NCBI GenBank assembly: GCA_012034595.1
Contig: JAAUPE010000013.1
Span: forward strand, 1-64,000
Reading direction: 5' to 3'
Origin: Calothrix sp. CSU_2_0
GTDB lineage: Bacteria; Cyanobacteriota; Cyanobacteriia; Cyanobacteriales; Nostocaceae
Length of the DNA stretch: 64,000 nt
Below are positions 8,289 through 61,095 of the stretch, piece by piece (position 1 is the stretch's first letter; each line of letters starts with the position of its first letter). The notes under the pieces are model-generated. The model was not told where the DNA came from and searched no databases. It saw nothing but the letters and a program-made list of their open reading frames with translations. A program made the position numbers and the translations under genes.

Positions 8289-9676
8289 TCACATTTCTAC
8301 ACGCGCTTCAAAATACCGTCGATATAGTTCACAACTAGGTATAACTTGATTGCCATGCAGTTTGACCAAACCCATACTATGTAGTTTAAATGCAGTTAAT
8401 TGTTCTAATTCTACAGGTGTTGGTGATTTCATTGCTTCGTCGTATGCTGCTGCTAATTGGGGATGTTCTTGTAGATTTCGTAAGTGTCGATGTAGATGAT
8501 GGCAATAAATACCTGCATCTGTTGCTGCGGTTGTAATTAACTGTTGCAAAGTTAGATTGCCAGATGCTAGATGATATAAAGCTTGTTGGATTAAGTATGG
8601 ATGTCCGGACAGCAGTTGCATCAGTTCTGAGAGTTCATTTTCAGATAAATCCAGTCCATAGCGTTTTTGTAAATCGATTAACTGTAATTGATTAAATACT
8701 TGTAATTCAATAGCTAAACCGACATTAAAGGGCGATTTATTAATATCTAAAGGAATATAAACTTCTGTGGAATGGATAATAATTAGCCGAAGATTTTGCC
8801 AATTAGGATTACCGCTATCCCCATAGGCTGCTTCTTCATACCAAGAACGGAGTAATGTAAAGAAATCATCGGCAATTTCTGGATGTAAAAATACTTCGTC
8901 AATATCATCTAAAGCTAATACTAAAACTCCATTAATATTTGGTAGTAAACAGTCTTCAAAATAAGCAGTACAATTACTTTTACTACCAAAGGTATCACTC
9001 CAGTAATCTTCTACTCGATAGGGTAGTTGTAATTTGCGGGTAATTGAAGTACAAAACCAGCGCAAAAATTTATCTAAGTTATTAAAAATACTGCGTTCTG
9101 CTCGTTGTAAGCTGAGTGCAACTGTATTCACTTGATTCTGTTGTTTGGCATGGGCTAAAATTCTCACCATTAAGGAAGTTTTACCCATCTGACTGGGTGC
9201 TTTAATGCGAATTAGTGCCCCTGGTCTGGTAATCTCTTCATAACAGCGTGATTCTACCCCCGGACGTTCGATGTATAAGGGTGATTCTAAAGATATTAGT
9301 CCTACTGGTGCTTCTAATTCTGTTTGTTTGGATGTGGAGGATGGTAAATAGGATATTGTTGGTTTTTCTTTCACCTCTTCAGATTCTGCAAATGCTCGTT
9401 GTGCTAAAACTGCCATTAAATTAGTTTTACTAACTTTTTCCCCTAAACTTAATGAAAGAATCTGCCACAATTTAGGACCTACATCATGTTTAATATATTC
9501 AGGAGCATAACCACAATCATCTGCAATCTTGTCATACTTTTGACCTAATAATGCCCCTTTGAGAACGGCAATTTCAATATTTTTAAGGTGTCTGTTGGTT
9601 TTGTGGAAGACTGCTGCATCTGCTATTTTGAGAGCTAATTCAAAGCGATCGCGTCTTCTTTCATGATTTCTATCAT
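8289..9676 (-). CDS. vMAP-HTH plus AAA-like ATPase (STAND-related), apparent one-base frameshift near the start
   Basis: From TTG 9470 the frame gives 393 residues with a Walker A PSQMGKTSLM and a Walker B VLALDDIDE, typical of the AAA_35 'AAA-like domain' proteins. The same frame extends upstream to about 9640. It encodes ALKIADAAVFHKT and KYDKIADDCGYAPEYIKHDVG, the helix-turn-helix found at the N-terminus of vWA-MoxR-associated (vMAP) and NB-ARC proteins. No normal start lies in that frame. One extra T in the run at 9642-9644 (plus-strand aaa) would join it to ATG 9676 or 9664, giving about 460 residues. Such proteins are proposed sensors in conflict or signalling systems. A MinD/ParA gene lies 17 bp upstream. 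Confidence 0.7.
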
Positions 9677-37045: not shown

Positions 37046-37366
37046 ATGAATCAAGTTACTTCTATTCTTAACCAAAAACTATCTATCCCGGAAAACGTCC
37101 TCGCGCAAGAGCTTAATGGTGAGATAGTTATCTTAAATATGGATTCGGAAACTTACTACAGCTTAAATTCTGTGGGAAGTCGGATTTGGCAGTTGTTGGC
37201 AAACTCTGAAAACGTGGAAACAGCAATGCAGCAGTTATTGCAAATTTATCTGGTAGATGAAACTGCATTGCTACGAGATGTAACTGAGTTTGTGAAAGAG
37301 TTATCAAAAGAAGAATTGTTAATTAGTTACGACAGCCAAGAATTAGAGGAGGAAAGTTTGCTTTAG
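37046..37366 (+). CDS. PqqD family RiPP recognition element (lasso peptide B1 protein)
   Basis: This 106-residue protein has the RRE winged-helix fold seen in PqqD and lasso B1 proteins. It carries an N-terminal beta wing (LNGEIVILNMDSETYYSLNSVGSRIWQLL) followed by helices (VETAMQQLLQIYLVDETALL, VTEFVKELSKEELL). It would bind the precursor leader and hand it to the B2 protease and cyclase. It lies 36 bp before the lasso precursor gene on the same strand. Its last codons form the 5' arm of a perfect hairpin. Confidence 0.85.
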   Translation: MNQVTSILNQKLSIPENVLAQELNGEIVILNMDSETYYSLNSVGSRIWQLLANSENVETAMQQLLQIYLVDETALLRDVTEFVKELSKEELLISYDSQELEEESLL

Positions 37367-37381
37367 CAAACTTTCCTCCTC
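37346..37381 (+). promoter_or_regulatory. Perfect 16-bp hairpin between B1 and precursor genes
   Basis: A 16-base arm from 37346 to 37361 (GAGGAGGAAAGTTTGC) pairs without mismatch with 37366-37381 across a TTTA loop. The B1 stop codon lies in the loop/right arm. There is no T-run after it on the plus strand, so it is not a standard terminator. It lies 21 bases before the precursor start and its left arm holds a Shine-Dalgarno-like GGAGG. Possible roles are attenuation, RNase protection of the precursor mRNA, or setting the B1:A ratio. Confidence 0.75.
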
Positions 37382-37402
37382 TCGAAAAAAATAGATTTAG
37401 CT

Positions 37403-37591
37403 ATGACTGAAGAAGTTCATAAATATCATCAACTTGAAGAAGAAAATACTAAAAATATTGATAATCTTTTACCTTACGAAGCACCCTTGTTACGCAAGCA
37501 TGGCAAAGTAAATGATGTGACTGAAACAATTCTTAGTCGCGCTCCTCGGCTTGATCGCACATTCGGATTTGGTTTCCTGGATTTTTCATAG
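37403..37591 (+). CDS. Lasso peptide precursor A1
   Basis: This 62-residue peptide has an acidic leader ending with the lasso-type box PYEAPLLRKHGKVNDVT (YxxPxL-x-x-x-G pattern bound by the RRE). Residues ETI follow, then a core that is probably LSRAPRLDRTFGFGFLDFS. Cut after Thr-Ile this places Thr at -2, the usual rule, and Asp at core position 8 for a Leu1-Asp8 macrolactam. Cutting one residue earlier would give a 9-membered ring. The aromatic Phe/Gly tail would be the threaded part. The C-terminal residue is serine, the site modified by HprK-like lasso kinases. It is not translated from a strong Shine-Dalgarno and sits after the hairpin. Confidence 0.82.
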   Translation: MTEEVHKYHQLEEENTKNIDNLLPYEAPLLRKHGKVNDVTETILSRAPRLDRTFGFGFLDFS

Positions 37592-40742: not shown

Positions 40743-42614
40743 ATGAGCGGCATTCTCAGTCTAATTAATCACAACAACGAACCCGTCAATCAGTCCCTCC
40801 TCCGCCAAATGACCGACTACATGGCATTTCGCGGAACCGATGCTCAACAAACATGGTACAAAGATAACATCGGGCTGGGACATACCTTATTGCGGACAAC
40901 CTGGGAACAGGAGCAGGAACAACAACCTTTTACCCTTGATGAACGAGTGTGGATTGTTGCTGATGTCCGATTAGATGGACGTAAAGATTTAGTTGTAGCT
41001 TTACTCGCAAGGGGTCGAGTAATTACTGAGAATGCACCCGATGTGGAGTTACTTTTACATGCTTATCACGTTTGGGATACCGCATGTGTAGAGCATTTAC
41101 AGGGAGATTTTGCATTTATTATCTGGGATGAAAGAGAGCAAAGACTATTTTGCGGACGCGACCAGTTTGGAATCATACCGTTTTACTATGCCCAGGTAAA
41201 CAATACTCTGATTTGTAGCAACACCCTCAACTGCATTCGCTTACATCCCCACATATCGACCCATTTAAACCAGCAAGCGGTAGGGGATTTCCTGACGCAG
41301 GGAATGAATATGGAATGGTCTACAACTATTTTTGATGATATAAAAAGACTTCCTCCCGCTCATACTTTAACTTGGCAAGCGGGGCAATTAGACACACAAA
41401 AATTAAACATCCAAAGGTATTGGCAATTACCCCGCACTCGACCTTTAATCTTCTACAAACATCCCCAAGAGTATGTAGAGCATTTTTCCGAACTCTTCGA
41501 GCAAGCAGTTAGCGATAGGTTACGCACGAATCGGATTGCAACTCATATCAGTGGGGGGATGGATTCTACCAGTATTGCCGCAATGGCGAATAAGATACTC
41601 TTAGAACGACGAGAACCCTTCGATTTTCAAGCATTTACAATGCGCGATCGCTTGATGATGCCAGAAGAAGATTCATACGCCAGCATGGTAGCCCATTTTA
41701 TTGGTATTCCCATAAATGAGATGAACTGCGAAGGGTATATGTGTGCCGTACCGTCAGTAACTCCCCAAACCCCATTACCTGAACCCATTGGCATTAGCGA
41801 TCGCAGTCCTAGTAATGACTTTACTAGACGCTGTGCAGACCATGCGCGGGTAGTTTTAACCGGATTTGGCGGCGACCCCGGTTTGCGATTTGGCGAATTC
41901 GATTTCTTGGTGTGGTGGAAACACGGTTTGCGTCAAGAAATATTCCAGGTGTTGGGACACTATCTAAAAACTCATCGCTCTAAGAAATTATACTTACGGC
42001 AGGGTAGAGCCTATTGGCGGAAAATCACCAAGGAAAAAGTAGAATTTCCCACTTGGTTTAATGCTGATTTCGTCAAGCAACTGGATTTACAGGAACGATA
42101 CGAGCAAATTAACGCCGAATCCATAGATTATATTGCTCGCTACGGCATGGCAAATACCCCATTTTGGTCAAACATCTTTGAACAATTCGACCCCGGTTGT
42201 ACGGGCATTCCTATCAAACATTATTATCCCTTCTTCGATCTGCGCTTGGTTAACTTTATGGTGTCAATTCCTCCCATACCTTGGTTGGTCAATAAAAATA
42301 TCTTGCGGGAGTCGATGAAAGGTAAATTACCAGAAGCCATCCGTACCAGACGAAAAATTGTCTTCCACGCACCTGAAGAGTATATCAATGGTATGCGAGA
42401 AAGCGTAGGGTTATGGGCTGGAGATTTGTTAAGGAATACACCTGGTTTGGAAGAATATATAAATACTGCCGATTTGCTCGGATGTTTGGAGTCTGGGGAA
42501 ATTGATACCGGGAAATTAATGGGGTTAGAGAAAACTTTGGCGGTTGCCTATTGGTTGCGAAGTTCTCAAGTGCTTTCACTGAATAAAGTAAAACTTGAGG
42601 CTGTATCTGTATAA
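40743..42614 (+). CDS. Lasso peptide macrolactam synthetase (asparagine synthetase-like, C protein)
   Basis: This 623-residue protein has an N-terminal Ntn-type domain followed by the ATP-pyrophosphatase domain with SGGMDS at residues 270-275. Residue 2 is serine (MSGI), not the catalytic cysteine of true asparagine synthetases, so it should lack glutaminase activity. This is normal for lasso cyclases. It would adenylate the ring Asp side chain of the precursor core and close the macrolactam with the new N-terminus. It lies 3.2 kb downstream of precursor A1, the gap being filled by the transposon-split DUF2887 gene and xisI. Confidence 0.88.
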   Translation: MSGILSLINHNNEPVNQSLLRQMTDYMAFRGTDAQQTWYKDNIGLGHTLLRTTWEQEQEQQPFTLDERVWIVADVRLDGRKDLVVALLARGRVITENAPDVELLLHAYHVWDTACVEHLQGDFAFIIWDEREQRLFCGRDQFGIIPFYYAQVNNTLICSNTLNCIRLHPHISTHLNQQAVGDFLTQGMNMEWSTTIFDDIKRLPPAHTLTWQAGQLDTQKLNIQRYWQLPRTRPLIFYKHPQEYVEHFSELFEQAVSDRLRTNRIATHISGGMDSTSIAAMANKILLERREPFDFQAFTMRDRLMMPEEDSYASMVAHFIGIPINEMNCEGYMCAVPSVTPQTPLPEPIGISDRSPSNDFTRRCADHARVVLTGFGGDPGLRFGEFDFLVWWKHGLRQEIFQVLGHYLKTHRSKKLYLRQGRAYWRKITKEKVEFPTWFNADFVKQLDLQERYEQINAESIDYIARYGMANTPFWSNIFEQFDPGCTGIPIKHYYPFFDLRLVNFMVSIPPIPWLVNKNILRESMKGKLPEAIRTRRKIVFHAPEEYINGMRESVGLWAGDLLRNTPGLEEYINTADLLGCLESGEIDTGKLMGLEKTLAVAYWLRSSQVLSLNKVKLEAVSV

Positions 42615-49876: not shown

Positions 49877-49980
49877 TTGCGATCGCACAAAATGGTCGCC
49901 AAAGGCATCGCGTGACTTTTAAAATAGCCAATATGAAGCGATCGCACGAAATAGTCGTCAATGGTATACCGTGGCTTTGT
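49877..49980. repeat. Two HIP1-associated dispersed repeats in tandem
   Basis: Two copies, each starting with gcgatcgcac and followed by a GTCG(T/C)CAA(T/A)GG motif and a short GTGRCTTT end, lie side by side. They match the copy near 49130-49190. Non-coding. Confidence 0.6.
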
Positions 49981-50057
49981 GTTTAACCAGAAATTTCCTT
50001 TTTCTTACAGTGTTCATTTTGTTAATTGCTAAAATTTTCGAGCTAGAGAAGAATTTT

Positions 50058-50237
50058 CTAACTCCTGTCTGTGAAACCTAAAAATCCATCGAAATCTGGA
50101 GCAAAATTAATTGTTGCAGTAGTATCATTTACCTTGCCATGCTTACGTAGTTTTGGTGGTTCATAGGGGAGACGGTTATCCTCCTTTTCATATTTAATCT
50201 CTTGAAATTCATTCGTGTTTTTAGCTGATTCTGTCAC
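50058..50237 (-). CDS. Lasso peptide precursor A2 (second precursor)
   Basis: A 59-residue ORF starting at GTG 50237 with a Shine-Dalgarno GGAG nine bases before it. The leader ends PYEPPKLRKHGKVNDTTATI, matching the A1 leader (PYEAPLLRKHGKVNDVTETI) at 15 of 20 positions. The predicted core is NFAPDFDGFLGFTDRS: with Thr at -2 the ring would be Asn1-Asp7; cutting one residue earlier gives an Ile1-Asp8 ring. Like A1 the core has Pro early, an Asp for ring closure, a Phe/Gly/Leu tail and a C-terminal serine. It is read opposite to the other lasso genes and lies between cyclase and kinase genes. Confidence 0.85.
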   Translation of the reverse strand: MTESAKNTNEFQEIKYEKEDNRLPYEPPKLRKHGKVNDTTATINFAPDFDGFLGFTDRS

Positions 50238-50288
50238 AGTTAATTTCTCCGTTTGATAAAATTAATTACGTTGTAAATGATTTCGTAA

Positions 50289-50327
50289 AAAGTGAAGTAT
50301 GACGATTTAGTCGTCGCACTCCACTTT
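50289..50327 (-). promoter_or_regulatory. Stem-loop in the upstream region of precursor A2
   Basis: A 17-bp arm (AAAGTGAAGTATGACGA) pairs with TCGTCGCACTCCACTTT with three mismatches around a five-base loop, about 50 bases before the A2 start. It may be an mRNA structure or an operator. The precursor A1 gene also has a hairpin upstream. Confidence 0.55.
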
Positions 50328-50471
50328 CTCAAATTTCATCAATTCAACGAAAAGCAGAAAATAGGGAAAACAAACACGACATTTGAGTAATGATAGTCAC
50401 ACAAATTCTATCTCTCTAGGGTGTGTGAACCAGTTTTTATGCAATCAGTACTCAGTTTGATATCAACACCT

Positions 50472-51122
50472 CTACTGCTTAGTTCCACTTGACCAGTAAG
50501 AAGTGCCGTTTCGGTCATAAGCTACCAGATTTCCATCATCCTGCATAATTAGTTTGCCTTCTTTATATTCAGTCCCGTACTTATTAATTGACCAAATGGG
50601 ATAGTCATTTCGGTCATAAATTACCAAGTTACCATCATTTTGAAAGCGAGTCTGTCCTATGGGTTTACCATTAGTACCTGATGCCCATAAAAGACTATCA
50701 TATTTATAAACAACCAAGTTCCCATCTTTCTGATATTCAAGCCTAAATATTCCGTTGCTTGATATTAGTTTATCGCCAGGATTTAAGAACTCATCTGCGA
50801 ATAACCTATCTTTAGCCAGATTATCTTTTTTAATAAGTACAGCATCCCTTCTAAAGCAATAAACCTCTGGATCGTGAGGGCGATTATTGCTCTTAGCGCG
50901 TTCACTATAAAAAGTTCCAGCGTTAATACCTGAATTGACATCTTTAGGTCTGATAGACCAGAGCGTGCAATCTTGTGAAGCTCCAGTACCTGTGTCATCC
51001 CAGATTGAGAATTCGCCAATATTCCCGCGAGAAACTAATTGTTTAGAGACCATGTTTAGAGGACTGTATCCAGAAGTACCGAGGTTTCTACCAGAGGTAC
51101 AAAAGAGGTACAAAAGCTGCAT
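50472..51122 (-). CDS. Bulb-type (mannose-binding) lectin-domain protein
   Basis: From ATG 51122 the protein has about 216 residues; a TTG start 12 codons upstream is also open. The C-terminal half holds three copies of the lectin motif QxDGNLVxY (QKDGNLVVYKYDSLLWASG, QNDGNLVIYD, QDDGNLVAYD). This matches one B-lectin beta-prism domain with three sugar-binding sites. The N-terminal half is unassigned and has conserved-looking cysteines (FCTSG, DCTLW, YCFRR). No signal peptide is clear. It sits between lasso precursor A2 and the kinase gene. Confidence 0.78.
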   Translation of the reverse strand: MQLLYLFCTSGRNLGTSGYSPLNMVSKQLVSRGNIGEFSIWDDTGTGASQDCTLWSIRPKDVNSGINAGTFYSERAKSNNRPHDPEVYCFRRDAVLIKKDNLAKDRLFADEFLNPGDKLISSNGIFRLEYQKDGNLVVYKYDSLLWASGTNGKPIGQTRFQNDGNLVIYDRNDYPIWSINKYGTEYKEGKLIMQDDGNLVAYDRNGTSYWSSGTKQ

Positions 51123-51233
51123 CGACGGCAAGGGATTGATTGGAAGTTTTGGTGTCAAAAAGCGTAGAAGGTATTTACTATTATTGAGAAATTTTAGTGA
51201 ATAGATTTGACAGCCGTTGCTTTAATTTAGCGC

Positions 51234-52238
51234 TCAAACTTTTTCGATCCCAGAGAGCCATTCCTGCATCTCAAGAGGTTGTTGCCAATTAAACATAAGC
51301 ACTATAAAATCATCAAGTTGGCGATCGCTTAATTGTTCGAGTTGACTAACTACCTGTGGCGTGAGAACCTCAGCCCCAAACTTAGCTCGAATTATAGTAC
51401 CTGCGGACTTTAGCTTACCTAGAAATTCACCTTCTAGTTTGCCTTCTAGTTTGCCTTCTAACCTAGCTTTGTTAAGTTGTTCTTCATACCAAGCATCGAT
51501 TTGTTCCATCGTTTTCATAAAATCTTCGTCCTCCGGAGTTAAACTATCACTAGGTATATCTTTCAAATAAACACAATATTTTATACATGCACTTATTATA
51601 TCATTTTTTTCCCTGCGCTCCGGTGATAGCTGCTTGATTGACTCAAAAGCCCTAGTCGCAGAGTGTTTATCTCCCAACATTTTTAGCCACATCGTTTCTG
51701 GACTATCAACCAATTCCGTGATAATCACAATTCCCAACCGAAAAATTGGAGGGATTCGATATACACCTACACCGAATTCAGTTGCTCTTTGAGCACCACA
51801 CAAATTCAATAGTTTTTCACTGCAATTCACCGTGAGAATCCACGTAAATGGATTTTGATTTTCAATTTGTTGTTTTGCTTTTTTCTTACTTGGTTGAGAA
51901 CTTGTTAATTCCGGTTTGGCTTTGGCACTCTCCACCAGTTCTTTCAGCTTTCTATCCCAATACAGATTTTTGCGAGTAATCGATTTATTAATATCCATTT
52001 CTTCTAGATACGAACTGTAATGTTCGATAATCACCGTTGGATGTTCTTGCATTAACAGGTCGAATAAACCTAAATTCTCAGAAAGCCACTCTGCGTTTTT
52101 TCGCTCTCCTATGAACATCAAATCAATTTCGAGGTCTTCATCATTGCGGACTTGGATATTTTGCAGAGTATTCCCTTTAGTTTTATATAAGGATTGGATA
52201 TAAAACTTGAAGAAGCGATCGTGTTTGTACTGAGCCAT
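51234..52238 (-). CDS. Rpn/DUF4351-like family protein, copy 2
   Basis: I place the start at ATG 52238 (MAQYKHDRFFKFYIQSLYKT), identical to the start of the paralogue at 1714-2697. The longer frame is not supported. The 334-residue protein is highly similar to copy 1 through NPFTWILTVNCSEKLL and QLSPERREKNDIISACIKYC. It differs by a LEGKLEGKLEG tandem stretch near residue 260 and a diverged C-terminus. The role is unknown. The repeat stretch is a short DNA tandem repeat that could vary in length. Confidence 0.6.
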   Translation of the reverse strand: MAQYKHDRFFKFYIQSLYKTKGNTLQNIQVRNDEDLEIDLMFIGERKNAEWLSENLGLFDLLMQEHPTVIIEHYSSYLEEMDINKSITRKNLYWDRKLKELVESAKAKPELTSSQPSKKKAKQQIENQNPFTWILTVNCSEKLLNLCGAQRATEFGVGVYRIPPIFRLGIVIITELVDSPETMWLKMLGDKHSATRAFESIKQLSPERREKNDIISACIKYCVYLKDIPSDSLTPEDEDFMKTMEQIDAWYEEQLNKARLEGKLEGKLEGEFLGKLKSAGTIIRAKFGAEVLTPQVVSQLEQLSDRQLDDFIVLMFNWQQPLEMQEWLSGIEKV

Positions 52239-52389: not shown

Positions 52390-53445
52390 ATGACGGTAAA
52401 CTATTATATACCGAATACACCTTCATCTAAAAAATCTCCCATCGCGTCTATAATTCATACCAAAACAGCAATATTATCAATGCAGCAACTAACTAAAACC
52501 TGCCATTATCAAATTTACGGTATTACCCTAAGCAGTAACCAACCCCTACCAATTTTAATTGCCGCTTCTAAAACATCCACAACAACGGTAGACGTGGAGG
52601 TTAACATCACAGAATGCGAATTATTGGATCAAGATATTAAAGCAGAAAATAAACACTATCGTTCTGGTTGGTATACAAAACAAAAAGTTGATGGGATTTA
52701 TTATTGCCTGTCTCTTCGTGGTGGCAACGAAATATTAGATGTGGAAATTGCTCCCGATGGCAAAAAAATCTGGATAACTTGGGCAAACTTACCCCTCGCT
52801 GAAGTCACTGCGATTTTAATCGGTTGCATATTAGGAACTGCTTTACGGTTGCAAGGAAAAATCTGCTTGCATAGCAGCGTGATTAAAGTAGATAATTGTG
52901 CGATCGCCATTATTGGCGCAAAGGGTGCAGGTAAGTCAACTACCGCAGCAGCATTTGCAAAACGCGGCTACCCAATTTTAGCTGATGACATTGCTGTTCT
53001 GGCTGACTATGGCGACTCCTTCTTAGTTCAACCTGGTTATCCTCGTCTGCGGTTATGGAAATCTGCTGTAAATGCGGTTTACGGTTCGGAAGCAGAATTA
53101 TCGCGGGTATTTAGGCAAACTGATAAGCATTTTGTGGAGTTACATCAAAATAATACATCGGCTTGGTGTTTTCACAGTCAACCTTTACCTCTGGCTGCAA
53201 TTTATATTCTAGGGGAGCGTCAACAGTCATTAGTAACACCCAGTGTAGAAACAGTTACCCCCCAAGTGGGTTTAATGCACTTAATTACTCACAGATACCC
53301 CCAATCTTTGAAGTTACAGCAAGATATGCAAAGGCGCGAATTTGCAGTATTGGGACGTTTAGCAGCAGCTGTACCAATGGGACATTTGCACCGAGAGGAT
53401 AATTTGGCTGAGTTGGGAAAAGTATGCGAAGCTTGCGTAAGGTAA
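52390..53445 (+). CDS. HPr kinase-like protein (lasso peptide kinase K)
   Basis: This 351-residue protein has an HprK C-terminal kinase core: Walker A IIGAKGAGKSTTAAAFA (about residues 174-190) and PILADDIAVL (residues 195-204). An alternative ATG at 52480 fits the family start (YGITLSSNQPLPIL) and may be the real one. HprK-like kinases in lasso clusters phosphorylate the C-terminal serine of the precursor. Both precursors here end in serine, which fits. It lies in the same orientation as the cyclase, exporter and B2-N genes, suggesting that it is the tailoring kinase of this locus. Confidence 0.8.
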   Translation: MTVNYYIPNTPSSKKSPIASIIHTKTAILSMQQLTKTCHYQIYGITLSSNQPLPILIAASKTSTTTVDVEVNITECELLDQDIKAENKHYRSGWYTKQKVDGIYYCLSLRGGNEILDVEIAPDGKKIWITWANLPLAEVTAILIGCILGTALRLQGKICLHSSVIKVDNCAIAIIGAKGAGKSTTAAAFAKRGYPILADDIAVLADYGDSFLVQPGYPRLRLWKSAVNAVYGSEAELSRVFRQTDKHFVELHQNNTSAWCFHSQPLPLAAIYILGERQQSLVTPSVETVTPQVGLMHLITHRYPQSLKLQQDMQRREFAVLGRLAAAVPMGHLHREDNLAELGKVCEACVR

Positions 53446-55489: not shown

Positions 55490-57328
55490 ATGACTAAGCT
55501 TTTTACTAAACTGCGCTCCATATTACCCCAATTACCTTACCTGCCCAAAGCCATCAAGTTAGTTTGGCAAGCTGCGGGTTACTGGATTGTTATTTGGGTA
55601 GTTTTGCTAATTTTTCAGGGAATTTTACCAGCAATCCAAATTTATCTTGTTAAAACTGCTATCAATAGCTTTGTCGCAGTTGTCAAAACAGATATTTACT
55701 CTCCTAACCTAACTTCTGCTCTCACCTACATTGCAATTTTGGTCGGACTTTTGCTGTTTGGAGGAGCGATCGCTAACTTCAATATTTGGGTGCGATCGCT
55801 CATTGCAGAATTAACCCAAGATTATGTTAGTTCCTCAATCCATAGGCAAGCAATTTCCCTCGATTTGGATTTTTTTGAGAGTCCTGACTACTACAATCGT
55901 CTGCATCGTGCTTGTACGCAGGGGAAAAATCAACCTGTTATGCTACTGGAAAATTTGGGAGAGTTAAGTGTAAATACGTTAACGCTGCTATCGGTAGCTG
56001 TTGTTTTGCTTCCTTTGGGCATTTGGCTACCCTTGGGATTGCTTTTGAGCAGTTTCCCACCTTTTTATGTCATGTATAAAAGCAATCACATCGAAAACCA
56101 GTGGCGATTGCAGAATACAGTCACGCAACGGTATATAGATTACTACGAAAATATACTTACAGAACGTGAATTTGCTGCCGAAGTACGCTTATTTGCTTTA
56201 GGCGATCGCTTCCAAACCAGCTACCAAAAACTACGTCAAAAGTTGCGAAAAGAAAAAATGGGGTTAATGCGATCGCGCAGTTTGGCTCAATTTTCTGCTA
56301 GTTTCCTATCTTTAGTTATACTTGGCATCGCGTTGAGTTGGATGGTGTCACAAATGGCACGAGGTAAGCTCAGTTTGGGCGATTTAGCGCTACTTTTGCA
56401 ATCCCTCTGGCTGGCTCAAGGATTACTACATAGCTTACTAAGAACTTTCAGCAAAACCTACCAAAATCTATTTTTACTCCAAGACTTGTTTGAATTTCTT
56501 TCCCTGCAACCGCTATTGATTCGTGAAAGTGTGGAGTGCAGACAACAAAATCTGGGTTTAACAAAAGGAATTTGTTTTGAGCAAGTTAGTTTTTATTATC
56601 CTGGCAGTCAGCGTTTAGCATTGGATGGGTTTACCCTAACTATTCCATCTGGACAAATAGTGGCAATTGTCGGTGAAAATGGAGCCGGAAAAAGCACCCT
56701 TGTTAAGTTACTTTGTCGTTTTTATGACCCCGAAGCGGGTAGAATTACTATCGATGGTGTAGATATTCGAGATATTGCGACAGCAGAATTGCGCCAGCTA
56801 TTCAGCGTTATGTTTCAGTTTCCTGCCCGTTACCAGGATACAGTAGCGAATAACATTGCTATTGGTGCTTTAGCTGCAAGCCCGACAGGGGGGCAAATAG
56901 AAGCAGTAGCAAAAATGACAGGCGCAGATATCGCCATACAGCAGCTACCAGGAGGATATGATTCTTTGTTGGGGACGCGGTTTGGTGGTTCTGAATTAAG
57001 CGGGGGACAATGGCAGCGTTTAGCCCTTGCTAGAGCTTGGTTGCGTTCAGCACCGATTGTTGTATTAGATGAGCCAACAAGTGCAATGGACGCTTGGGCA
57101 GAAGCTAACTGGTTAGGATGTCTGCGGAAACTAGCTGAGGGGAGAACGGTAATAATAATAACCCATCGTTTTACCACCGCCCAACAAGCAGATATGATTC
57201 ATCTGATGGCAGAGGGAATGGTAGTAGAATCGGGTACGCATCAGGAGTTATTAGTTAAAGGTGGTAGTTATGCTGAATCTTGGAAAATGCAGGTTGAGAC
57301 TCAGGTACAGACGAAAAGAAGTACATAA
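55490..57328 (+). CDS. ABC transporter, lasso peptide exporter (D protein)
   Basis: This 612-residue fused permease-ATPase has about six membrane segments (WIVIWVVLLIFQGILPAIQI to ILGIALSWMVSQMA). A C-terminal ATPase follows with Walker A VGENGAGKST, signature LSGGQWQRLALA and Walker B IVVLDEPTSAMD. Lasso exporters (McjD-like) have this layout. No N-terminal C39 peptidase is present, as leader removal is done by B2. It precedes the B2-N gene by 39 bp, so the two are likely one operon. Confidence 0.85.
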   Translation: MTKLFTKLRSILPQLPYLPKAIKLVWQAAGYWIVIWVVLLIFQGILPAIQIYLVKTAINSFVAVVKTDIYSPNLTSALTYIAILVGLLLFGGAIANFNIWVRSLIAELTQDYVSSSIHRQAISLDLDFFESPDYYNRLHRACTQGKNQPVMLLENLGELSVNTLTLLSVAVVLLPLGIWLPLGLLLSSFPPFYVMYKSNHIENQWRLQNTVTQRYIDYYENILTEREFAAEVRLFALGDRFQTSYQKLRQKLRKEKMGLMRSRSLAQFSASFLSLVILGIALSWMVSQMARGKLSLGDLALLLQSLWLAQGLLHSLLRTFSKTYQNLFLLQDLFEFLSLQPLLIRESVECRQQNLGLTKGICFEQVSFYYPGSQRLALDGFTLTIPSGQIVAIVGENGAGKSTLVKLLCRFYDPEAGRITIDGVDIRDIATAELRQLFSVMFQFPARYQDTVANNIAIGALAASPTGGQIEAVAKMTGADIAIQQLPGGYDSLLGTRFGGSELSGGQWQRLALARAWLRSAPIVVLDEPTSAMDAWAEANWLGCLRKLAEGRTVIIITHRFTTAQQADMIHLMAEGMVVESGTHQELLVKGGSYAESWKMQVETQVQTKRST

Positions 57329-57366: not shown

Positions 57367-59106
57367 ATGAACGTATCAGCATTATTAATTCAAAAAGCGC
57401 GTACTTGGAAGAAGTTTTCTAGCACTGAACGCTGGTTTCTTCTCCAAGCACTAATATTACTTCCTGCGATCGCATTATCCTTAAAAATCTGGGGATTCAA
57501 ACGCACACATTCGCTTTTAACCTACTTCCTACCACCACAACCTTCTCCCCCGTTGTCCAACTCCCCAGATCGACTCTTCACCACTGCAAATATGGTGAAA
57601 ATTGCCGCAAAATATTATAAATGGGCAACCTGTCTGAGAAAATCCCTGGCTTTATGGTATTTGTTGCGTCGTCAAGGAATAGCTGCCGAATTACAAATTG
57701 GTACTAGATTTGAGGTTGGAGAGTTTCAGGCTCATGCATGGGTCGAATATCAAGGATATATTGTAGGCGATCGCCAAGGAGTAAAGCAGCATTATGTCGC
57801 ATTTGATAAACTTGAAACTAAGCTAAGTCAAAATTTGTCCAAAGTTGAATCAAATAGATTAACTTTTCCAATCTTAAAGTGGCGTATAGAAGTTGAACTT
57901 TTGTTGTGTTATGCACGTACTCACATCGATACTACCACTGCTTTGCGTATAGAGAAATTACTACAAACAGAGAAAAATATAGATTGGAAATATTTACTGC
58001 AACAAGCATCTCAACAAGGAGTTTTTCTTCTCCTCTACCAAAACCTGATTACAAGTCATCTGGAATCCATTCCCAAAGATATCCAGCCTCAGTTACAAGC
58101 ATACAGCCAGATCAAAACCGCACGTAATCTCTTTCTCAGTAAAAAACTTTGTCAAATACTCGAATTGTTTAAAAATCACGATATTCAAGTCATTCCGTTC
58201 AAAGGTTCTGTGCTTGCAGCTTCTGCTTATAATAATTTGGTAATTAGAGAATTCTGCGATATTGATTTACTGATTAAGCAAGAAGATTTCGTTCAAGTCA
58301 AAGAATTACTACTTGCTCAAAACTATAAACCCCGTAGTGAACTACAACCTTGGGGAGAGGATTTTGCCAGTGAAGATGATAAAGTTCATATCGATATTCA
58401 CTGGCAGTTAGCACCATCTTGTTTCCCCTATCGATTAGATTTTTCAGAGCTTTGGCAACGCTGTCAAACGATATCTATTTTTAACCAAAAAGTTATAACT
58501 GTTTCTCCAGAAGATTTATTATTAATTCTCTGTTTACAAATAGTGAAAGATGCCCACTACAGACAGGAAAAGCTAAAGCAAGTCTGTGATATTGCTGAAC
58601 TTGTTCGTACTTCGTCTCTTAACTGGGAATTAGTTATTCAACAATCTCAAAATCTAAGTAGCGAAAGATTACTGCTGTTTGGTTTAGCCGTAGCATGGGA
58701 ACTTTTACAAATAGAAATTCCTCTAGAAATAAAGCAAAAAATAGCAAGTGATAGGATAGTTAATCGGTATTTTTGTCATGTGAAAGAACAATTATTTATC
58801 GTAGATAATCGGCAAAATAAAATATTTGGACTTTTCGATCGGGGATTAATAGCAGGTTTATATGGATTTACCCTTAGAGGTTTGATGCTTCTCGATCGCT
58901 CTCATTTTCTCGGCAAGCATAATCGATATTTAGTAGGGCATTTATTCAGTTATATGTTTGCTCCTAACTCTAGGGACTTAAAATATATATCTCTCCCCAT
59001 ATATCTCTATTTTATATACTATTTAATTAGACCAATACGTCTAATTTCAAAATTCGTGAAGTCATCTTCAAAAACAAATTTAATTTTGCCGAAGAAAGCA
59101 TTTTAA
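57367..59106 (+). CDS. Fused lasso B2 leader peptidase and nucleotidyltransferase
   Basis: This 579-residue protein has two parts. Residues ~1-150 match lasso B2 transglutaminase-like proteases: Cys89 in KWATCLRKSLALWYLLRRQG, His123 in FQAHAWVEYQG and Asp135 in YIVGD. Residues ~200-560 match the NTP_transf_5 nucleotidyltransferase family: KGS at 279-281 in VIPFKGSVLAA, then DID at 298-300 in EFCDIDLLI, which would bind metal and nucleotide. B2 and this enzyme are separate genes in the lasso systems that I know, so the fusion is unusual. The second part may tailor the phosphorylated core. Confidence 0.85.
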   Translation: MNVSALLIQKARTWKKFSSTERWFLLQALILLPAIALSLKIWGFKRTHSLLTYFLPPQPSPPLSNSPDRLFTTANMVKIAAKYYKWATCLRKSLALWYLLRRQGIAAELQIGTRFEVGEFQAHAWVEYQGYIVGDRQGVKQHYVAFDKLETKLSQNLSKVESNRLTFPILKWRIEVELLLCYARTHIDTTTALRIEKLLQTEKNIDWKYLLQQASQQGVFLLLYQNLITSHLESIPKDIQPQLQAYSQIKTARNLFLSKKLCQILELFKNHDIQVIPFKGSVLAASAYNNLVIREFCDIDLLIKQEDFVQVKELLLAQNYKPRSELQPWGEDFASEDDKVHIDIHWQLAPSCFPYRLDFSELWQRCQTISIFNQKVITVSPEDLLLILCLQIVKDAHYRQEKLKQVCDIAELVRTSSLNWELVIQQSQNLSSERLLLFGLAVAWELLQIEIPLEIKQKIASDRIVNRYFCHVKEQLFIVDNRQNKIFGLFDRGLIAGLYGFTLRGLMLLDRSHFLGKHNRYLVGHLFSYMFAPNSRDLKYISLPIYLYFIYYLIRPIRLISKFVKSSSKTNLILPKKAF

Positions 59107-59211: not shown

Positions 59212-59613
59212 TTACCAAGCACGATTAACTGTATTTGCTCGAACTGTATCTAGGGTTTGATTCACATTACCTAAAAATGTTTTTGATTCTTCTAGCAACT
59301 GGTTAAATTCCCCGCATTCTTGTTTCTCTCGGCAACTGCGATCGGCATCTGCGAGTTTTTTAGCCAATTGTTCGGATTTAGCGATCGCGTCTTCACTCAA
59401 CCGAATTCTACCAGGTACATTATCATTAAAAATATTACCTCCTCTTGGATCGCCAGGAATGCTCACTGGATTATTGGGAGGTATGGGATTATTAAAAACA
59501 GTAGTTCCTGTCACATCCGACTGATTGGTCTGTTGGGCATTGACAGGGAGAGTTGCTAATGCACAGATAGCGAAAGATGTAAATGCAGTTATAAACCATT
59601 GACCTTTTTGCAT
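59212..59613 (-). CDS. Exported protein, hypothetical
   Basis: This 133-residue protein has a clear signal peptide (MQKGQWFITAFTSFAICALA, then TLPVNAQQ, cleavage after NA-Q likely at about residue 26). A proline/asparagine-rich mature start (NNPIPPNNPVSIPGDP) and a charged helical C-terminus (EDAIAKSEQLAKKLADADRS, then CREKQECGEF with two cysteines) follow. The two cysteines could form a disulfide in the periplasm. No family recognised. Confidence 0.7.
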   Translation of the reverse strand: MQKGQWFITAFTSFAICALATLPVNAQQTNQSDVTGTTVFNNPIPPNNPVSIPGDPRGGNIFNDNVPGRIRLSEDAIAKSEQLAKKLADADRSCREKQECGEFNQLLEESKTFLGNVNQTLDTVRANTVNRAW

Positions 59614-59769: not shown

Positions 59770-61095
59770 CTAAAGCTGAAAAGAGAAACCAGCACCAAAT
59801 ACAAAACGGGAACCGTCTCCTGCACCAGTTATATCGCGGATAGCAGGGGTAATGACTATGGGTAAATCGGGGAATGGATTAATCGAAAGTCCCACACCTA
59901 AATCTTGTCCGCTCCATTCGACAATTAAACTGGCTGGTTTTGCGATGCGAACTGCGACATTACCAAAAACATTGACGTTATAGTCTCCAGCAAAAACCGC
60001 ATCTTCGGTACGAAATTGCCCTGTACCAATACCCGCAGTCAATGCAACCCGACTAAAAGGTGAGTCAATATTCTCTCGTGTCTTGAAAATCTTAGTTGCA
60101 ACCCCGTAGAGAGACTGTTCAAAATTGTTGGATTCACCAATATTCAAAAAGCCATTCCAACCGACTGCGACAGCCAAATCCCCCGGTAGTTGACGATGTA
60201 CTTTCAGATTAAAACCACCACTACCAAAGTCTCGGTTACGTCCCAGACTGGCTAAAGTGTAGGAAACTTCGACACCTACTGATTTGTAGGCATCACCTAA
60301 ACCCACACCAAAACCCAATCCTAAATCATCATCATCGGAAAACCGACCTCTTTCTTGATAGCTAGTACCAATAAAACCTCGGTTGCGATCGCTTCCATAT
60401 CCTGTGGGGATATAAATGCTCAAACTGGGTGAAAAGAATGGTTGAATCTCTTTTCTTTTCAAAGCACGTAAGTCGTTCAGGACTTTTTCTACTTCCTGTG
60501 CAGATATGTCTTGCTCTTTCGTTTTGGTATTGGTGGGAGGATTATCTGCTAGTTTGATCGGAGTCAGATCGGCTTTATTTCTGTTTTGCTTGGAAAGTAT
60601 ATTGATATTTGCAAGATTGCTCCCAGATAAAGATAAGTTAGGAAGGTGAGAATTAGAGCTATGCTTTTCCTGAATTTCTCCCAACCCAAATTTACTTTCA
60701 TGCAAATCTCTACTGTCTCGAATCGTTCGCAGACGGTTTATTAGGGTGGTTTTTGGCTTCAATCCCGATTGCTGGGGATTCCGGATAATACTTGCAATCG
60801 CATTCAAATTCTCGGAGTTCAATTTATCTTGTTTCAATCGTCTGACAAGATTCTTTTGCTCTGGAGATAAAGGGATTAAAACCAATCGATCTTTTTTCAG
60901 ATTGGTTTGCATCTCCATGTCAACAGGTGTATCGGAAGTCGTAAGATTAACTTCCCGGATATAGCGATCGCTTTTAGTTTCTGCTGCTTTTGCTGGTGCT
61001 GCTGCAAGTACAAAGATGGCAATTAGAGTTAGTTTCCAGTCGCAGTGTAAAAATAAAGGCATACCCTGCTTCAGTTTGTAAGTTAATTCTTCCAT
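59770..61095 (-). CDS. Exported beta-barrel-like outer membrane protein, hypothetical
   Basis: This 441-residue protein has an N-terminal signal peptide (LTLIAIFVLAAAPAKA then AE). A later ATG (61062) could be the true start. A ~150-residue low-complexity linker follows. A C-terminal region of about 240 residues has alternating strands rich in Gly and aromatic residues: GFIGTSYQERGRF, GLGFGVGLGDAYKSVGVEVS, LAVAVGWNGFLNIG, and a last strand ending FVFGAGFSFQL. The terminal pattern ending in a hydrophobic residue is typical of outer-membrane barrels. The exact family is not recognised. Confidence 0.65.
   Translation of the reverse strand: MEELTYKLKQGMPLFLHCDWKLTLIAIFVLAAAPAKAAETKSDRYIREVNLTTSDTPVDMEMQTNLKKDRLVLIPLSPEQKNLVRRLKQDKLNSENLNAIASIIRNPQQSGLKPKTTLINRLRTIRDSRDLHESKFGLGEIQEKHSSNSHLPNLSLSGSNLANINILSKQNRNKADLTPIKLADNPPTNTKTKEQDISAQEVEKVLNDLRALKRKEIQPFFSPSLSIYIPTGYGSDRNRGFIGTSYQERGRFSDDDDLGLGFGVGLGDAYKSVGVEVSYTLASLGRNRDFGSGGFNLKVHRQLPGDLAVAVGWNGFLNIGESNNFEQSLYGVATKIFKTRENIDSPFSRVALTAGIGTGQFRTEDAVFAGDYNVNVFGNVAVRIAKPASLIVEWSGQDLGVGLSINPFPDLPIVITPAIRDITGAGDGSRFVFGAGFSFQL

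Follow-up and report, generated by a model that had tools for sequence, protein, structure and literature searches.

The short gene A2 most probably encodes a working second precursor of a single lasso peptide maturation system, a reading to which we assign a probability of about 85%. It lies on the reverse strand of the window, the 64,000-nucleotide stretch of Calothrix sp. CSU_2_0 analysed here, within 22 kb that also hold a PqqD-type RiPP recognition element (RRE), a cyclase, a kinase, an ABC exporter and a fused B2 peptidase. The best reading of the sequence is that A2 would be a precursor of the paeninodin or pseudomycoidin type, sharing its enzyme set with the other precursor of the locus, A1. 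A2 is genuine as a second precursor and its system is of a known type, but the family to which it belongs has the unusual features of RRE fusions, a first acidic residue at core position 10, and dispersed copies.

A second precursor and one set of enzymes

The A2 gene (50058-50237, reverse strand) is a GTG-started open reading frame of 59 residues (MTESAKNTNEFQEIKYEKEDNRLPYEPPKLRKHGKVNDTTATINFAPDFDGFLGFTDRS) opposite in strand to A1, and the frame listing bears out the original prediction on this point. On that strand, codons 1-41 (50115-50237) form the leader and codons 42-59 (50061-50114) the predicted core TINFAPDFDGFLGFTDRS, followed by the stop codon (50058-50060); the boundary was placed by the spacing of Tyr at -17 and Thr at -2. 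Lasso leaders carry YxxPxL at -17 to -12 and Thr at -2 according to the available text of PMC10368454, and A2 fits this spacing, with Tyr-17, Pro-14, Leu-12 and Thr-2 being Y25, P28, L30 and T40. The core first proposed, NFAPDFDG..., thus begins two residues too far in. The good Shine-Dalgarno sequence that had been foreseen is present as GGAG, 9 nt before the GTG (50247-50250, reverse strand), and a GGAG/GAGG-type site before the start is common to most relatives.

The two precursors of the window have the block LPYE.P.LRKHGKVND.T.TI in common, and are identical at 28 of 56 positions (BLASTP, single comparison, E 6e-16). With A1 as the sole query, phmmer picked out A2 at E 2.2e-11 when the window was searched as 1850 six-frame segments. 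A hidden Markov model built from eight relatives, with all window sequence left out, gave A2 77.4 bits (E 5e-23); no unrelated segment of the window exceeded 7.2 bits, and 20 mononucleotide shuffles reached 7.8 bits at most. These searches confirm the claim of a second lasso-type precursor with the leader box of A1. The NCBIfam models NF033521 (lasso_leader_L3) and NF033528 (lasso_cyano) describe leaders with the same YxxPxL box. As a protein, A2 narrowly missed the cut-off of the former (18.4 bits against 19), while in the genome scan it was flagged above cut-off at 19 bits; against lasso_cyano it reached 13 bits only, the cut-off being 33.

The remaining genes are on the forward strand. Firstly, the PqqD-type RRE (lasso B1; 37046-37366) scores 60.3 bits with PF05402, for which the cut-off is 23.4, and is followed by A1 (37403-37591), a 62-residue precursor with the predicted core TILSRAPRLDRTFGFGFLDFS and its first acid at position 10. 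Secondly, a lasso cyclase (C) homologue of the asparagine-synthase family (40743-42614; 623 residues) matches NF033535 at E 1.6e-97 with 327.6 bits, below the model cut-off of 525. Thirdly, an HPrK-like precursor kinase (K; 52390-53445; 351 residues) has His161, GKS and a DD motif, as in the kinases covered in the accessible parts of PMC10368454 and PMC9266682, with homology scores under the curated NCBIfam and Pfam cut-offs. Fourthly, an ABC transporter (D; 55490-57328; 612 residues) precedes a B2 leader peptidase fused to an NTP_transf_5 nucleotidyltransferase (57367-59106; 579 residues). The B2 part is a Transglut_core3 domain, with its Cys in TCLRKSLAL and its His in AHAWVE, and the fusion scores 78.9 bits with NF033537 (cut-off 33) and 197.6 bits with PF14907.

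The RRE, the Cys-protease B2 and the asparagine-synthase-like cyclase are therefore all in the genome and locus of A2. Across the genome, A1 and A2 are the only precursors above cut-off, and the window contains both the single B2 that was found and the single close cyclase, the next best being 27% identical. Hence, if the lasso pathway of this genome matures A2, the enzymes are shared with A1. The lasso genes are scattered across their 22 kb, with a TnpB gene interposed and A1 and A2 12.5 kb apart on opposite strands; other frames lying between them appear, by eye, to be toxin-antitoxin and Rpn-type genes.

The chemistry of A2 and the nature of its product are predicted throughout from homology. 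The ribosome would make the 59-residue precursor, whose leader would be bound, at DNRLPYEPPKL..., by the discrete PqqD/RRE protein. Phosphorylation of Ser59, at the C-terminus, would probably fall to the HPrK-like kinase, and this phosphate may in turn be modified by the nucleotidyltransferase domain of the B2 fusion. B2 would remove the 41-residue leader one residue past Thr40, which leaves Thr at -2, and the cyclase would join the amino group of Thr42 (core 1) to Asp50 (core 9) or Asp48 (core 7), with the tail threaded. The ABC transporter would export the product, and A1 would pass through the same set of enzymes. The cut and ring given here for A2 are favoured only somewhat above even odds. 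The role of the product is probably antagonism or signalling, with competition likeliest judging from the lasso class. The combination of Ser-ended cores, a kinase with H/GKS/DD motifs and a nucleotidyltransferase domain supports the paeninodin or pseudomycoidin type; counted against the reading of A2 as a working precursor are the scattered cluster, its absence from both listed congeners, incomplete relatives, the sub-cut-off cyclase and kinase, and two cores that do not end in Ser.

A putative outer-membrane protein, recognised by eye, recurs beside lasso genes in Rivularia and Plectonema, as does a small exported protein in Rivularia (window 59770-61095 and 59212-59613, reverse strand; L037:2543-4430; L076:1-994; L039:15733-16623). 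Roles in export or immunity are possible for both.

Ring position, cleavage and constraint on the core

Measured from Thr at -2, an acid falls at core positions 7-9 in 6 of the 14 complete cores of the leader family, A2 having Asp at both 7 and 9, and the first acid is at 10 in the other eight, A1 included. A1 consequently has no Asp or Glu at 7-9 by this ruler, and fits only if cleavage occurs at least one residue later. By contrast, of 28 further cyanobacterial lasso-leader precursors drawn from the same searches, 24 have an acid at 7-9, one only at 10, and three only at 11 or 12 (Fisher p 2e-4, ignoring relatedness). These 28 are deduplicated hits fitting Y..P.[LI]...G.....T, chosen by this pattern alone, and a distant precursor from genome G130 (L005/L033) was placed among them, outside the family. 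Since three have an acid only at 11 or 12, the Thr-2 ruler is imperfect in cyanobacteria. Five precursors that by eye are of lasso_cyano type (L006, L008, L016, L022 and L060) have D at core 11, or 12 in L060, before GG; two of them also carry a D at 8, and three offer no other candidate.

These positions bear on the alternative that survives best, in which the same enzymes act on A2 with another cut or ring. The core would then be INFAPD... or NFAPD..., or the product an unthreaded macrolactam or one of different size. It overlaps with the preferred reading in everything except cut and ring. The first acid at 10 in eight cores, and the D at 11 or 12 in 5 of the 28 others (the sole candidate in three), suggest that some cyanobacterial precursors may depart from the Thr-2 rule; against this, 24 of the 28 fit Thr at -2 with an acid at 7-9, and the residue 1 that the rule defines is T, S, A or G in 11 of the 14 family cores. 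On balance this alternative is rather unlikely. Thr is not among the examples of residue 1 in the available text of PMC12670498, where a non-exhaustive list runs "such as" Gly, Cys, Ser, Ala, then Asn.

Wherever cleavage falls, the spacing of the Thr and the aligned acid is one residue different between A1 and A2. Either one cyclase would make two ring sizes, or B2 would use two cut sites, or A2 would cyclise through Asp7. For A1 and the seven other cores with the first acid at 10, either the natural ring would be of ten residues or the cleavage would be shifted. Natural lasso rings comprise 7-9 residues in the accessible portions of PMC8498205, PMC9266682 and PMC10368454, and a ten-residue ring is described in PMC8498205 as an in vitro analogue in the fuscanodin/fusilassin context. 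No natural ten-residue ring was found in the open-access literature, as covered by a search whose narrow wording also missed that analogue. It is a tentative possibility that one enzyme set forms a nine-residue ring on A2 and a ten-residue ring on A1, each with Thr as residue 1, from precursors that may be free or fused to an RRE. If this were true, nature would make a macrolactam of ten residues, beyond the 7-9 given for natural lasso peptides, and precursors tethered in cis to an RRE would be a new architecture. The A1/A2 system is a direct test case for whether natural lasso cyclases make ten-residue rings.

The leader and core have evolved differently. Over 22 leader codons, from DN to residue -1 in 15 rows including the contig-truncated L040, mean pS was 0.60 and pN 0.17, with pS above pN in 105 of 105 pairs, which are not independent. 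Core positions 1-9 gave pS 0.71 and pN 0.62 over 14 rows, with pS exceeding pN in 58 of 91 ungapped and likewise non-independent pairs, near saturation. The sequences thus indicate that the leader is under purifying selection, and hence that the frame is translated, whereas core positions 1-9 appear fast-evolving, through weak constraint or saturation; positive selection is unsupported, though not strongly excluded. The conserved leader and variable core of the family are as predicted, but the diversifying selection that had been read into them is not shown, the mean pN of the core lying below its pS. The claim that A2 has a "different core" is no more than half right, since two features come back across the family, a C-terminal Ser and an acid at position 9 or 10. 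The core is constrained in these respects, with the Ser in 12 of 14 complete cores, A1 and A2 included, and missing from those of G324a and G385.

A patchy family of leaders and its surroundings

The leader family comprises 17 cyanobacterial loci, 14 with a complete core: A1 and A2 in the window; two precursors (a, b) and a pseudogene in genome G324; one in G385; a remnant in G800; four in Rivularia sp. MS3; five in Plectonema cf. radiosum LEGE 06105; and one, truncated by the contig end (L040), in Leptolyngbyaceae SM1_4_3. The counts of acid position and C-terminal Ser leave out L040, the G324 pseudogene and the G800 remnant (15 rows, 14 complete). Searches covered 388 genomes at the level of the order, 386 of the phylum, 217 of the family and 388 of the class, in overlapping samples and with profiles that grew, plus one further scan of genome contigs. 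Within the GTDB family, 6 of 217 genomes were positive at E < 1e-6, that of A2 included, and 13 of 217 at E 0.001, the extra seven having weaker leader-box relatives. The same 217-genome search found no family precursor in either of the two other genomes listed under the same genus. Hence the distribution is patchy. The leader homologues anticipated in relatives thus occur in five other genomes of the GTDB family and in the Leptolyngbyaceae MAG; the refuting outcome named beforehand, which joined the lack of a transcript with the lack of any such homologue, therefore fails in its second half. A tblastn search of PLSDB (E 1) matched no plasmid-borne relative of A2.

Pathways vary in completeness among the relatives. 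B2 was not found in G385 (99% complete) or G800 (84% complete), the sole B2 of G324 lies 1.4 Mb from its precursors, and G306 has a PqqD gene and a B2 fusion of this kind with no family precursor at E 0.001. The G324 pseudogene (L030:8260-8325 and 8389-8523) retains part of a leader, with a stop, and after it the remains of a core similar to the intact one of G324a.

Such decay raises the alternative that A2 is itself a decaying or silent duplicate, a relict of cluster expansion that is no longer expressed or matured. The interrupted cluster, the GTG start, the clear pseudogene in G324, the truncated remnant in G800 and the incomplete pathways of some relatives are in keeping with this view. 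However, the A2 frame is open up to its C-terminal Ser, the Shine-Dalgarno sequence is intact, and the core acid and Ser are kept. Furthermore, leader pS far above pN places the reading frame of the A2 family under selection, which leaves this alternative improbable. That A2 is a chance open reading frame, being short, without an ATG and downstream of a lectin gene, is refuted without circularity by the 77 bits from a model free of window sequence, as opposed to at most 7.8 in 20 shuffles, by the match to A1 alone, and by homologues in other genomes.

The upstream stem-loop that was predicted for A2 is present (50282-50333, reverse strand; -24 kcal/mol, z -7.0, equalled by none of 200 shuffles), but as a family-wide element it was rejected. 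In hand-chosen upstream stretches, z was -4.8 or lower for four of the ten stand-alone precursors (A2, G324b, Riv1 and Ple4), and from -1.6 to +0.4 in the other six (G385, Lep, G324a, Ple1, Ple2 and Ple3). No second copy of the hairpin was found in the genome at E 0.01, and a MAFFT alignment of six upstream regions left the stems out of register. A promoter and terminator scan of 49900-51250 gave values near those of shuffles, with the A2 hairpin not among the terminator-like sites, and no Rfam family reached threshold in 36500-60000.

The gene upstream of A2, across a gap of 234 nt (50472-51158, reverse strand), has a C-terminal mannose-type (bulb) lectin domain, for which PF01453 gives 32.0 bits, just below the cut-off of 32.4; its N-terminal part shows a weak resemblance to a portion of an insecticidal protein (6fbm, E 6.7e-5). 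All nine complete stand-alone precursors have a larger same-strand frame within 500 nt (window 50472-51158; L032:16197-16595; L030:9636-18422; L075:11324-16761; L076:4041-8880; L077:3360-5135; L037:7969-11992). Three of these nine neighbours have lectin domains, from three families (B_lectin, ricin-B, and jacalin with GH18), and the others are an amine oxidase, a GH31/aldos-2-ulose dehydratase, or proteins with no known family. Pfam assigned no family at E 0.01 to 9 of 20 precursor neighbours in relatives. Two such groups of partners align as families, and two partner proteins without an assigned family matched nothing significant among PDB sequences. Dispersed precursors may move as cassettes together with partners that are lectins or enzymes.

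By eye, five of the ten stand-alone precursors (L030 (9252), L037, L076 (9260), L032 and L040) share GRAATCGTCTTWAA, some 45-140 nt ahead of the start, which is possibly an ECF promoter. Genes of the sigma-70 family lie near precursors in L030 (7239-7970) and L076 (9391-10401). In two relatives, ATC takes the place of ATG or GTG behind a Shine-Dalgarno sequence (L076:9054-9260, reverse strand; L037 near 9965, forward strand); that frame of L076 contains no ATG-, GTG- or TTG-started frame of 30 residues or more, and L037 has a TTG about 35 codons ahead of the ATC. Short genes starting with GTG, as in A2, or with ATC may escape annotation.

Related systems and precursors fused to recognition elements

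Among kinase-tailored lasso peptides, the system of A2 resembles that of paeninodin from Paenibacillus dendritiformis, which, in the available text of PMC9266682 and PMC5067487, has a discrete B1/RRE, B2, C, an ABC transporter, an HPrK-like kinase and a Ser-ended precursor. It differs in being cyanobacterial, in its two precursors on opposite strands, in its B2-nucleotidyltransferase fusion, and in that phosphorylation is here a prediction only. For pseudomycoidin, from Bacillus pseudomycoides, the kinase PsmK and nucleotidyltransferase PsmN act on the C-terminal Ser, with PsmN linked to hexose, in the accessible part of PMC9266682; there psmK and psmN are separate genes, whereas the nucleotidyltransferase domain of the A2 system is fused to B2. 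Caulosegnins I-III of Caulobacter segnis similarly derive from several precursors and one enzyme set, with rings of 8 and 9, as described in PMC13352647, seen in part. Unlike these, the predicted rings are 9 for A2 and 10 for A1, and the precursors are dispersed, with some fused to an RRE in relatives. With A2, one lasso cluster becomes a small multi-precursor system, presenting natural core variants at a constant leader, which show what the enzymes demand (a C-terminal Ser, and an acid at 9 or 10) and which positions are tolerated. The prochlorosins of picocyanobacteria also combine many precursors with a conserved leader and a variable core. One promiscuous enzyme serves the class, according to the text available of PMC10783134. 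As lanthipeptides with leaders of the Nif11 family, prochlorosins differ in chemistry from lasso peptides.

Four of the 14 complete precursors join PqqD/RRE, leader and core in one frame, the precursor forming the C-terminal part of the PqqD protein. Three are from Rivularia (L038:9647-10135, forward; L038:6343-6822, reverse; L079:5576-6049, reverse) and one from Plectonema (L042:1258-1800, forward). An AlphaFold2 model of a Rivularia fusion from a 25-row alignment had a mean pLDDT of 69.8, with about 82-88 for the RRE, 82 for leader residues 121-130 and under 50 for linker and core. It contains a strand at 130-135 in the leader, counted as L..HGK. The RRE of this model, compared over its residues 2-100 only, aligns with TbiB1 solved with leader (5v1v) at Z 12.8 and rmsd 1.9 over 88 residues, and Foldseek placed a 5v1v chain at 1.4e-5 and, best, 5v1u_B at 2.1e-6. 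The model is consistent with docking of the leader on the RRE within the fusion. An earlier model, of a different fusion with a 6-row alignment, was set aside (mean pLDDT 43.6).

The open-access literature, so far as its text was accessible, yielded no natural RRE-precursor fusion; the fusions named in the available parts of PMC7470986 and PMC12710340 are to enzymes, not precursors. The latter also gives 21% of PF05402 proteins as exceeding the size of a discrete RRE with no other Pfam domain, and it is among these oversized proteins that RRE-precursor fusions could hide. Natural fusions of this kind could serve as single-chain tools.

In the window, PqqD and A1 share a reading frame at a distance of 357 nt, with a homologous linker (ELEEESLL*QTFLLSKKIDLAMTEEV against ELEDESLLKQTFILSKKKRDLATTEEV). 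A perfect 17-bp palindrome with a 4-nt loop (37345-37382, forward strand; z -7.3) lies across the PqqD stop, between PqqD and A1. In its Plectonema counterpart (L042:1540-1610), one stem pair is altered on both sides, and the loop, TAAA, is the reverse complement of the TTTA of the window. TTTA gives rise to the stop, whereas TAAA encodes Lys and a fused protein. Judged from these two genomes only, which differ as if the palindrome had inverted, such an inversion would switch a split arrangement to a fused one.
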